The translations under genes were made by a program, and so were the position numbers. Below, piece by piece: positions 31,683 through 34,334 of a DNA stretch of 64,000 bases (positions within the stretch are counted from its first letter, which is position 1; every line of letters begins with the position of its first letter). The notes under the pieces were generated by a model. The model had not been told where the DNA came from and made no database searches. It saw only the letters and a program-made list of their open reading frames with translations. The DNA comes from Fundidesulfovibrio terrae. GTDB taxonomy: Bacteria; Desulfobacterota; Desulfovibrionia; Desulfovibrionales; Desulfovibrionaceae. The DNA lies in assembly GCF_022808915.1 (NCBI RefSeq), contig NZ_JAKZFS010000001.1:1070644-1134643 (forward strand), read 5' to 3'.

Positions 31683-31949
31683 GTGCCAGAAACGTATCCG
31701 GATCACTGGTCTTTCGACGATGAATTCGACAGCGGCGAGGAGTCCTGCGGCCGGGTGATCATCAATCTCCATTCCTACGTGAAGGAGCTTGCGCCCGGGA
31801 CACGGCTGCTGCTGATCTCCCGCGATCCGGCCGCCCCGGCGGAGTTCCCCGCCTGGTGCCGCATGACCAGAAACGCGCTTCTGGACGCGGCCCACCCGTA
31901 CTACCTCATCGAACTCAAACCCGAACTGAAGGAGAACCTCCATGGCTGA
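31683..31949 (+). CDS. TusA-like sulfur-carrier protein (88 aa)
   Basis: This 88-residue protein begins with GTG, preceded by GGAG. It is similar in layout to the TusA-like domain of the gene at 32318: a lone Cys near the N-terminus (Cys22 in EESCGRVIINL), then PGTRLLLISRDPAAPAEFPAWCRM. TusA-type proteins carry a persulfide on that Cys and pass sulfur between enzymes. The classical CPxP motif is absent. Its stop overlaps the start of the DsrE-family gene by 8 bases, so they are translationally coupled. It heads the sulfur-carrier/methionine-synthase cluster. Confidence 0.78.
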   Translation: MPETYPDHWSFDDEFDSGEESCGRVIINLHSYVKELAPGTRLLLISRDPAAPAEFPAWCRMTRNALLDAAHPYYLIELKPELKENLHG

Positions 31950-32307
31950 GAAGTTCTGCGTCACCATCACCCATTGCCGCACCGACGGCGACAAGGCCAC
32001 TGTGGGCTTCGTGGTGGCCAACGCCGCTCTGGGCAGCGAAAAGGACACCATGGTGTTTCTCTCCACCGACGGCGTGTACTGCGCGGTGAAGGGCGAGGCC
32101 GAGAAGATCGACGAAGGCGCTCCCTTCGCCCCCTTGAAGGAACTCATCACCAAGTTCGTGAATGCCGGGGGCAAGATCTGCGTGTGCACCCCCTGCCTGA
32201 AAAAGCGCGGCATCGCCGAGTCCGACCTCATCGAGGGCGCGGTCCCGGCGGGCGGGGCGGTGTTGGTGGAATGGCTCAGCTCCGGCTCCCCCTGCGTGGC
32301 CTACTGA
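31942..32307 (+). CDS. DsrE/DsrF-family sulfur-relay protein
   Basis: This 121-residue cytoplasmic protein has the DsrE fold pattern: N-terminal strand CVTITHCRTDGDKATVGFVV, then TMVFLSTDGVY, then the sulfur-handling loop CVCTPCLKKRGI with Cys80, Cys82 and Cys85. DsrE-family proteins accept and donate persulfide sulfur with TusA-like partners. It overlaps the TusA-like gene by 8 bases and is followed 10 bases later by the TusA-OsmC fusion, so all three are one operon. AAGGAG precedes the ATG. Confidence 0.85.
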   Translation: MAEKFCVTITHCRTDGDKATVGFVVANAALGSEKDTMVFLSTDGVYCAVKGEAEKIDEGAPFAPLKELITKFVNAGGKICVCTPCLKKRGIAESDLIEGAVPAGGAVLVEWLSSGSPCVAY

Positions 32308-32317
32308 TCAGCCTTCC

Positions 32318-33085
32318 ATGACCACCCTTTCAGCCGACGATCTGCTTGCGCTGTCTCCCGACAGGGTTTTCGACGGGGGCGACCTGGACTGCGGCTCCGG
32401 CCTTGCCCTGCTCATCCGGGAGAACATGCTCTGCGTGAGCCCCGGCGGGGTGCTTGAGATGATAAGCCGCGAACCCACCGTGGCAGATGAGCTGCCCCCC
32501 TGGTGCAGGCTCTCCGGGCACGAGCTTTTGGGCTCCCTGCCGGGCCAGGGCGGGACGCGCTTCTTCCTGCGCCGGGGCGTGGCGGTCTCGCGCGGCGAGG
32601 CTGCCGAGGCCGAGCGCCTGGCCCTGGAAGAGGACAAGCGCCGCGCCAGGCAGTACGAATGGCGGCTGCGGGTGCGCGCGGGCGAGGGCCAATCCAGCAC
32701 GGTCTATTGCCGCAACTTCTCCTGGACCCTGGGCCAGCCCGCCTCCTTCGAGGAGCGGGACCGAAACCCCAGCGCCGTGGAGGCCCTGCTCGGAGCCCTG
32801 GGCGCGGCCCTGGCCACGGGCTACGCCACAGAGTGCGCGCGCGACGCCCTGGAGATCGACGACATCGAGCTCACCGTGAAGGGGCGGCTCACGAACATCC
32901 TGGCCCACCTGGGCATGGAGGAGGGCGACCCGTCGTTCGCCGCCATCGAGGTGCGCTGCTTCGCCTCCACCCTGGACGACGAGGGCAAGGCCCGGGCGGC
33001 CTGGGAGCGGGCCGTAGCCCGGTCTCCCGTGGCGGCCACCCTGGCCAGGGCCGTGGACCTCAAAGCCTCCTTCACCATCGCATGA
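32318..33085 (+). CDS. TusA-like/OsmC-like fusion protein
   Basis: Residues 15-75 form a TusA-like domain with Cys25 (GDLDCGSGLALLIR) and SPGGVLEMISREPTVADELP. After a charged linker (about 90-112), residues 113-255 are an OsmC-like domain (FSWTLGQPASFEERDRNPSA, then EALLGALGAALATGYATEC). OsmC proteins are thiol peroxidases. Here the usual first catalytic Cys (ALASC pattern) is Ala164, while Cys131 and Cys173 remain, so activity may differ. It belongs to the same operon as the preceding two genes, and the selenoprotein-like methionine synthase follows 64 bases later. Confidence 0.85.
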   Translation: MTTLSADDLLALSPDRVFDGGDLDCGSGLALLIRENMLCVSPGGVLEMISREPTVADELPPWCRLSGHELLGSLPGQGGTRFFLRRGVAVSRGEAAEAERLALEEDKRRARQYEWRLRVRAGEGQSSTVYCRNFSWTLGQPASFEERDRNPSAVEALLGALGAALATGYATECARDALEIDDIELTVKGRLTNILAHLGMEEGDPSFAAIEVRCFASTLDDEGKARAAWERAVARSPVAATLARAVDLKASFTIA

Positions 33086-33149: not shown

Positions 33150-34334
33150 ATGAGCTCCTTCACCACCACCCAGGTGGGCAGCTGGCCCCGCTCCAAGAAG
33201 ATGCTGCGCGCCTTGCGCGACCGGCGCACGGGCAATATGACCCGCGCCGCCTTCGACGCCGTGGCCGACGAGGAAGTGCGCCGCACGGTGCGCATCCAGG
33301 AAGAGGCCGGGCTGGACGTGGTGGTTGACGGCGAGCACCGCCGTGACAACTTCTACTCCTTCGTCACGGACAAGCTCGAGGGAACGAAGCTCATGAGCCT
33401 GGCAGAGATGCTGGGCGAGATGGAGGACAAGTCCGGCTTCGAGGAGATGCTCACCACCCTGGACGTGCCCGCCTCGGCCATCCGCAACCCCACCTGCACG
33501 GGCAGGTTGTCGCGGCGCGAGCCCCTGGCCCTTGAGGACTTCCGTTTCGTCAAGTCGCTCACGGACAGGCCGGTGAAAATCACCTTGCCCGGCCCGTACC
33601 TGCTCACCCGGTCCATGTGGGTGAGCGCCTACACCAAGAAAGCCTACGCCTCACAGCGTGAAATGGGCGACGACGTGGTGCGCGTGCTGCGCGAGGAGCT
33701 TCAGGACCTGGCCGCCGCCGGGTGCGAGTTCGTGCAGTTCGACGAGCCGGTGCTCACCGAGGTGGTCATGAGTGGGGAGTGCGGCCGGCGAACGTTCATG
33801 TGAGCGACGCTCGCCACCCGCCGGGACGTGGGTGAAGAACTGGATTACGCGGCCGAACTGATAAATACCGTCATAGAGGGAGTGGAAGGCCCCCGCATCG
33901 GCCTGCACATCTGCCGGGGCAACTGGAGCACCAGGGAGGAGGTCCTGCTCACGGGGGACTACCGTCCGCTTCTGCCAGCGCTCACCAAGATGCGCGTGCA
34001 CCAGTTCGTGCTGGAGTACGCCACGCCCAGGGCGGGCGAGATCGAGGTGGTGGGGAGGGAGCTTTCCGGGGCGGTGCCGGGATCGCCCAGGCCGCGCGAG
34101 TTGGGCCTTGGCGTGATCAACCCGCGCACTACGGACGTGGAGACCCCGGAGGAGATCGTGGCCCGGGCCGAATCGGCCCTGCGCTTCTATCGGCCGGAGC
34201 AGCTCTTCCTCAACACCGACTGCGGGTTCGGCTGTTTCGCCAGCCGCTGCGTCAACGTCGAGGATGTCGCGGCGGCCAAGATCGCCAGCATCGCCCGGGC
34301 GGCGCGCATGCTGCGAGACAAGCACGGCGGCTGA
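33150..34334 (+). CDS. Core-MetE (cobalamin-independent-type) methionine synthase, probable selenoprotein with Sec218 at an in-frame TGA
   Basis: Codons 1-217 and 219-394 are one uninterrupted reading frame except for TGA at 33801-33803. Both sides belong to the same COG0620 protein. The N-side has TTQVGSWPRSKKML, DGEHRRDNFYSF and FVQFDEPVLTEVV. The C-side has LHICRGNW and NTDCGFGCF. The MetE zinc ligands are all present as His253, Cys255, Glu289 and Cys358. The TGA falls in RTFM-TGA-ATLATRRD, where I recall homologues having Cys. A SECIS-like hairpin starts 11 bases after it. This supports selenocysteine insertion rather than a broken gene. Core-MetE enzymes methylate homocysteine with a non-folate or unusual methyl donor. 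A sulfur-carrier operon lies directly upstream. Confidence 0.83.
33815..33834 (+). promoter_or_regulatory. Candidate bacterial SECIS element downstream of the in-frame TGA
   Basis: A 7-bp stem pairs 33815-33821 with 33828-33834 (one G-T pair) and closes a 6-base loop CGGGAC at 33822-33827. The loop starts 18 bases after the TGA and has G at its second position. Both agree with the known pattern of bacterial SECIS elements bound by SelB (loop about 16-37 bases from the UGA, G in the first two loop positions). Confidence 0.68.

Follow-up and report, generated by a model that had tools for sequence, protein, structure and literature searches.

Can a TGA codon inside a methionine synthase-like gene of Fundidesulfovibrio terrae be read as selenocysteine (Sec), and what would such an enzyme do? 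The question was raised by a gene at 33150–34334 of the window, which here means the whole 64,000-nucleotide stretch of contig NZ_JAKZFS010000001.1 (positions 1,070,644 to 1,134,643) that was analysed. The original prediction, made from the sequence letters, had described this gene as a probable new selenoprotein of the core-MetE type. In this study, the gene, hereafter MetE(Sec), was investigated through its homologues, the hairpin behind the TGA, the Sec machinery and the neighbouring genes. The TGA at 33801–33803 is almost certainly a Sec codon. We place a probability of about 0.93 on the gene being a full-length core-MetE-type zinc methyltransferase with UGA 218 read as Sec, which serves as the enzyme of a four-gene module and belongs to a family with Sec and Cys forms; this value covers the identity of MetE(Sec), not its proposed working.

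Reading frame and conservation of the TGA codon

The two pieces of the gene, 33150–33803 (ATG, 217 codons) and 33804–34331, share a common frame and are parted by nothing but the TGA. The terminal stop of the joined frame is TGA 34332–34334, and the claim of one complete core-MetE-like protein of 394 residues was confirmed. The genome of F. terrae contains a single copy.

33150..34334, plus strand: MetE-like selenoprotein, 394 amino acids if UGA 218 is Sec (frame, PF01717, alignment)
33801..33803, plus strand: predicted Sec codon (TGA), residue 218 (TGA in 45/45 loci; Cys in 35/35 distant rows)

Fifty loci were compared, 49 from a scan of genome contigs plus the window gene. All 45 loci that reach column 218 carry TGA there, and the remaining five stop short of the column. 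The context is RTFM-U-ATLATR in 44 of the 45 and RTIM-U-ATLSTR in L043. Identity of the Sec loci to the window protein ranges from 87% down to 58% (L039), with 54% in the fragment L042, and the set includes three Bacteroidota (G744, G748, G750). Third codon positions were more variable than first and second positions in 10 of 10 pairwise comparisons on both sides of the TGA; thus, the half after the TGA evolves as coding sequence.

A search of 348 genomes of the class gave 29 matches: 22 with one TGA at column 218 (own genome counted), three fragments short of the column and four distant MetE proteins. Full-length TGA matches scored at least 705 bits, one TGA fragment 285 bits and the distant proteins 75–85 bits. 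The 395 genomes of the phylum, a set that overlaps with the former, gave 13 matches, of which two were of the TGA form (one being the own genome), five were Cys relatives and the rest were distant. These five relatives are uninterrupted, carry TFMC or SFMC at column 218 and scored 398–497 bits. No close Cys version was seen among the 348 class and 395 phylum genomes. In the class of one Cys genome, a relative was found in 33 of 148 genomes, with a TGA inside none of them and a single TAG in two.

The alignment comprised 30 Sec rows and 35 Cys rows, the latter from 31 of these 33 genomes plus G497 and two from Paracoccus, with one protein being counted twice; the row filter required the letters FM, and no row was lost to it. 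Column 218 is Sec or Cys throughout, as in every family member seen, and Phe216 and Met217 are invariant across the 65 rows. The expectation that homologues carry Cys held for distant ones only (about 40–45% identity in the plasmid search), no Cys relative having been found among close ones. All 30 Sec rows share Cys116, Cys192, Cys211 and Cys362, which occur in none of the Cys rows. In the tree, a branch with 100/99 support separates the Sec rows from the rest; because the single outgroup row sits on a very long branch, the tree shows one Sec clade, not the direction of Sec/Cys change.

A second candidate was set aside. In the distant MetE-family gene L102 (G539:C197:17751-18665, minus strand), a TGA takes the place of Cys in the HxC zinc motif. 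This gene was rejected as Sec-MetE because no tRNA-Sec match in genome G539 exceeded 46 bits, which makes Sec less probable than a broken gene.

Domain and active-site residues

Pfam PF01717 (Meth_synt_2) covers residues 4–360 of MetE(Sec) at 109 bits. Nine NCBIfam models (June 2026) match the protein, all of methionine synthase types and all under their cut-offs, so it was filed as MetE-like and not as a named member. The four zinc ligands proposed in the original prediction are all present and never vary.

33906..33914, plus strand: zinc ligands His253 and Cys255 (HxC), invariant in 65/65 rows
34014..34016, plus strand: zinc ligand Glu289, invariant in 65/65 rows
34221..34223, plus strand: zinc ligand Cys358, invariant in 65/65 rows

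The homocysteine-holding residues were named via the available part of PMC7857596 and transferred to MetE(Sec) through motifs. Ser11 and Glu62 are kept in every row except one gapped row, and Asp198 in every row. MetE(Sec) thus combines the Meth_synt_2 domain with the zinc and homocysteine residues, and its nearest fold is MesD. The earlier label of methionine synthase agrees with the fold, zinc and homocysteine residues; the activity itself is presumed, and the genome also encodes an intact short MetH-like protein.

SECIS-like hairpin

A hairpin follows the TGA, and it was evaluated with a rule that is our own coding of the bacterial SECIS constraints in section 5 of PMC13188914, including a hairpin 16–37 nt past the TGA.

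33815..33834, plus strand: SECIS-like hairpin, 7-bp stem, 6-nt loop CGGGAC (33822–33827), 18 nt after the TGA

The rule was satisfied in 43 of 45 loci versus 584 of 2882 (20%) other places in the same genes, in agreement with the bacterial SECIS model. Conservation across the 163 fourfold codon columns of the gene is highest at codons +5, +9 and +6, all inside the hairpin. Over the set, 88.9% of stem cells are paired versus 85.8% in shuffles (0/500 shuffles as high), and slid versions of the hairpin pair 52.4% of cells at most. Synonymous-codon shuffles gave a mean z of −1.17 over the 45 loci, with nine loci below 0.05; the controls gave −0.59 to 0.17 at seven other places and 0.10 in 32 Cys relatives.

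Selenocysteine machinery

The genome of F. terrae contains the Sec machinery in the form of tRNA-Sec (anticodon tca), SelB and SelA. The Rfam scan of the window itself gave two tRNAs and nothing else. The tRNA-Sec search covered 56 genomes, namely, 50 carriers of the Sec gene, five Cys-form genomes and G539. A match of at least 55 bits was found in 48 of the 50 Sec-gene genomes, and that of G730 scored 51.9 bits and was called tRNA-Sec by ARAGORN. The match scored at least 69 bits in each of the five Cys-form genomes. The bit score is unsafe alone, since a 61.6-bit match (L123) is tRNA-Cys by ARAGORN; the same genome has a better match of 69 bits. Two such tRNA-Cys genes (gca, ARAGORN) were observed, namely, L123 501–589 (G736) and L130 296–387 (G751), which scored 61.6 and 54.7 bits on the tRNA-Sec model.

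The Bacteroidota carriers G744, G748 and G750 all have tRNA-Sec (tca), and among 296 genomes sampled from Bacteroidota tRNA-Sec was found in one, which is the carrier G748. In G744 (L159), one strand carries tRNA-Sec, selA, selB, a cysteine desulfurase family gene, yedF, a Se/S carrier (PF11823) and selD, followed by genes for small TusA, DsrE, TusA-OsmC and MetE(Sec). In G748, tRNA-Sec, selA, selB, yedF and selD are clustered on a different contig from MetE. In L024 and L017, tRNA-Sec lies about 1.5 kb upstream of MetE at the operon head. G618 and G738 appear to be the same genome, and two tRNA-Sec genes were observed in it (L024 3387–3484 and L126 317–414), one of which heads the Sec-MetE operon.

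Weighing of the selenocysteine reading

The selenoprotein reading is supported by the TGA in every locus that reaches the column, with Cys at the same column in homologues, by the hairpin and by the machinery. Several observations weigh against it. Two loci, L011 and L033, fail the SECIS rule. Both-side changes occur in only two of seven stem pairs, and 24 of 500 shuffles are as high. The window hairpin alone is not significant, either versus synonymous shuffles (z −0.77, reached by 20%) or versus dinucleotide shuffles (z −1.36, 19/200); the hairpin signal resides in the locus set rather than in the window gene alone. In the Sec-gene genome G224 (81% complete), no tRNA-Sec match above 46 bits was found. 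The loop 205–230, which holds Sec218, has low confidence in the structure model, so the position of Sec218 near the zinc is unproven. A MetH-like protein is present in many carriers, including most of those tested besides the window genome; hence, methionine synthesis need not be the role of MetE(Sec). Finally, two fragments at contig ends have extra in-frame stops, namely, one in L040 and, in L042, a second TGA plus four others.

The stops in these two fragments are what a pseudogene, a sequencing error or a conserved stop with a functional 217-residue product could draw upon. We regard this group of explanations as very improbable given the TGA in 45/45 loci and the coding evolution past it. 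All zinc ligands lie after the TGA, so a 217-residue product would be without the active site. A pseudogene or random stop was rejected on the grounds of the conserved TGA, the coding evolution, and the retention of Sec/Cys at column 218 and of the ligands.

Operon structure and gene context

MetE(Sec) is the last gene of an operon with the conserved order small TusA, DsrE, TusA-OsmC and MetE(Sec). The earlier list of pieces had omitted the small TusA gene at 31683–31949, with which the operon starts; its GTG start (31683) is our choice, and its 3′ end overlaps the DsrE start.

31683..31949, plus strand: small TusA-like protein, 88 amino acids, first gene (PF01206, 29.1 bits; tblastn match in place)
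31942..32307, plus strand: DsrE-family protein, 121 amino acids (PF02635, 61.3 bits; place conserved)
32318..33085, plus strand: TusA-like and OsmC-like fusion, 255 amino acids (PF02566, 39.9 bits at 149–249; place conserved)

PF01206 and PF02635 matches above the cut-offs were thus obtained for operon proteins. The TusA part of the fusion is a weak match below the cut-off in the window (23.3 bits at residues 13–88) and is under the cut-off in L159 as well. Of the 45 loci, 40 have DsrE, 41 have TusA-OsmC and 40 have a small TusA match; the last count includes a cross-match within TusA-OsmC (L006) and the odd truncated locus L043. Except in L043, the missing genes fall at contig ends. No TGA occurs in the operon DsrE or OsmC.

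Four side observations were made at these loci. In L043 (2292–3004), a Sec-MetE without its N-terminal half stands directly behind a small TusA match, through either deletion or an assembly fault. A comparison by eye of the OsmC part of 32318–33085 with the L127 OsmC showed Ala (ALGAA) in the former at the place of Cys (AMGSC) in the latter; the Sec operon may therefore have lost a thiol site. An open reading frame (ORF) resembling methylenetetrahydrofolate reductase by eye (L002 8475–9341) is located on the opposite strand, some 2 kb downstream of the operon. A rhodanese-like ORF behind the L127 OsmC was likewise recognised by eye.

The Cys form has similar neighbours. In the second class, OsmC follows 16 of 16 standalone Cys forms with loci (L168–L183), and DsrE precedes 14 of 14 longer Cys forms (L184–L197). 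A TusA-MetE fusion was checked with Pfam in two proteins (L128, L165) and beyond these was deduced from length. Plasmid pFER4 of Paracoccus ferrooxidans (L165) carries TusA, DsrE, two ORFs without a family match, TusA-MetE(Cys), selA (565 bits) and trxB, together with a cysteine desulfurase in the same cluster (L165 4357–12571); tRNA-Sec lies at L165 18239–18332, about 8 kb past MetE. Neither selB nor selD was seen in the annotation of the P. ferrooxidans plasmid stretches shown. A 13-kb stretch of P. versutus UW1 contains MetE(Cys), selA and trxB but yielded no tRNA. No sel genes or tRNA-Sec were found near the Cys forms in 20 Desulfobacterota stretches.

These neighbourhoods bear on two explanations of what the enzyme does. 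The first is selenium salvage: the enzyme would methylate homocysteine at the expense of methylselenol or a different methylated selenium compound, and the freed selenium would pass from Sec or Cys218 to TusA and DsrE for SelD and SelA. Linkage to Sec genes in three lineages argues for it, as seen in the complete cluster of L159, the tRNA-Sec heading the operon in L024 and L017, and the selA and trxB that adjoin the Cys form on Paracoccus plasmids. So does the tRNA-Sec of the Cys-form genomes. The YedF protein, with TusA and DsrE parts, is tied to selenium use in the available part of PMC5322559, and methyltransferase clusters with proposed methyl-selenium roles are known from that of PMC10418091. 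However, the Desulfobacterota stretches with Cys forms lack sel genes, the linkage may reflect mere co-transfer of the gene with the machinery that it needs, the operon is without a corrinoid protein, and the activity is predicted. We therefore hold salvage to be possible, with the odds against it. The second explanation, which we consider unlikely, is a methyl-sulfur enzyme that passes the methyl of methanethiol or a related compound to homocysteine while TusA and DsrE carry the sulfur off into sulfur metabolism. The operon holds sulfur carriers, TusA is fused to the Cys form, and the carriers of the gene are mostly sulfate reducers, going by record titles; the link to Sec genes would be unexplained, and the substrate is a proposal.

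Possible methionine synthesis and proposed mechanism

Two Desulfopila genomes (G734, G739) encode MetE(Sec) as their sole PF01717 protein, along with HcyBio, a homocysteine enzyme; a full MetH was not found in either, MetH matches reaching at most 73 bits. As a sign of methionine synthesis, the sole PF01717 protein is only circumstantial. When checked in three genomes, a TAG inside the MetH hits from the window genus turned out to be the ordinary gene end. The Desulfopila genomes, the invariant homocysteine and zinc residues and the MesD-like fold would suit a plain core methionine synthase, which converts homocysteine to methionine with a methyl group from a corrinoid or other donor, with Sec as a methyl relay or redox guard and the carriers protecting or tuning it. 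We keep this reading as an alternative that is less likely than not: a MetH-like protein recurs in the window genome and in most of the other carriers that were tested, the isolated MetH-like domains of Desulfopila may be pieces of a split MetH, and TusA, DsrE and OsmC are left unexplained.

For the Sec enzyme that we favour, we infer a function that couples methyl transfer of the homocysteine type to carriers of persulfide or perselenide, and likewise the Sec in the protein, its nearness to the zinc, the contact with TusA or DsrE and each reaction step. UGA 218 would be decoded as Sec through the downstream hairpin, SelB and tRNA-Sec. Ser11, Glu62 and Asp198 would hold homocysteine or a similar thiol for activation by the zinc, and Sec218 would sit on the loop after Asp198, at the mouth of the barrel. 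As a methyl group passes to or from the bound thiol, Sec218 may swap a sulfur or selenium atom (in persulfide or perselenide form) with the carriers TusA and DsrE. In outline, we lean slightly towards this scheme. A fuller version, a chalcogen system in which the Sec methyltransferase demethylates methylated selenium (or sulfur), converts homocysteine to methionine and hands the atom through its own Sec to TusA/DsrE for selenocysteine synthesis, appears doubtful.

Relation to known systems and significance

Table 1 of PMC13188914 (2026), in the part available, contains 119 families or subfamilies of selenoproteins, none with a methionine synthase domain. The literature searched, which lay outside preprints and GenBank annotation, gave no account of a Sec-MetE family, and none is described in the portions at hand of PMC12013277, PMC9312934, PMC7857596, PMC7005905, PMC2702500, PMC8318568, PMC10418091 and PMC5322559. 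MetE(Sec) resembles known bacterial selenoproteins in its in-frame UGA, SECIS-like hairpin, Sec/Cys pair and Sec machinery. Known selenoproteins include Sec forms of DsrE-like and OsmC-like proteins, whereas here the TGA is in MetE. Folate-independent core methionine synthases (core-MetE, MesA–MesD) differ in that the present family has an FM[U/C] loop motif that ends in Sec or Cys, stands in an operon with TusA, DsrE and OsmC, and passes no NCBIfam methionine synthase cut-off. The selenium or sulfur carriers YedF and TusA/DsrE are alike in having TusA and DsrE domains near Sec genes (PMC5322559, part available), but here these are separate genes or OsmC/MetE fusions instead of a YedF fusion; L159 has YedF too. 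Type I mlp clusters, as far as the accessible text of PMC10418091 describes them, also join methyltransferases to Sec genes with a proposed methyl-selenium use, but they hold corrinoid proteins and are commonest in Firmicutes, neither of which was seen for the MetE(Sec) operon.

Most selenoproteins are described as likely redox proteins, and selenium delivery to SelD as 'incompletely elucidated', in the available sections of PMC13188914. The family would place Sec in a MetE-type zinc methyltransferase beside persulfide carriers, a combination outside the inventory in that part of the source. Annotation that ends at the TGA drops the active site of MetE(Sec). The finding hints at a new link among selenium, sulfur carriers and methionine-type methyl transfer, and through it the reason for the co-occurrence of TusA, DsrE and OsmC with a methionine synthase becomes testable. 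The finding also suggests that some Desulfopila could require selenium for methionine synthesis, and it may bear on the route of selenium to SelD. If the chalcogen system were true, its enzyme would both require and supply selenium, with the whole Sec machinery clustered beside it in at least one Bacteroidota genome.
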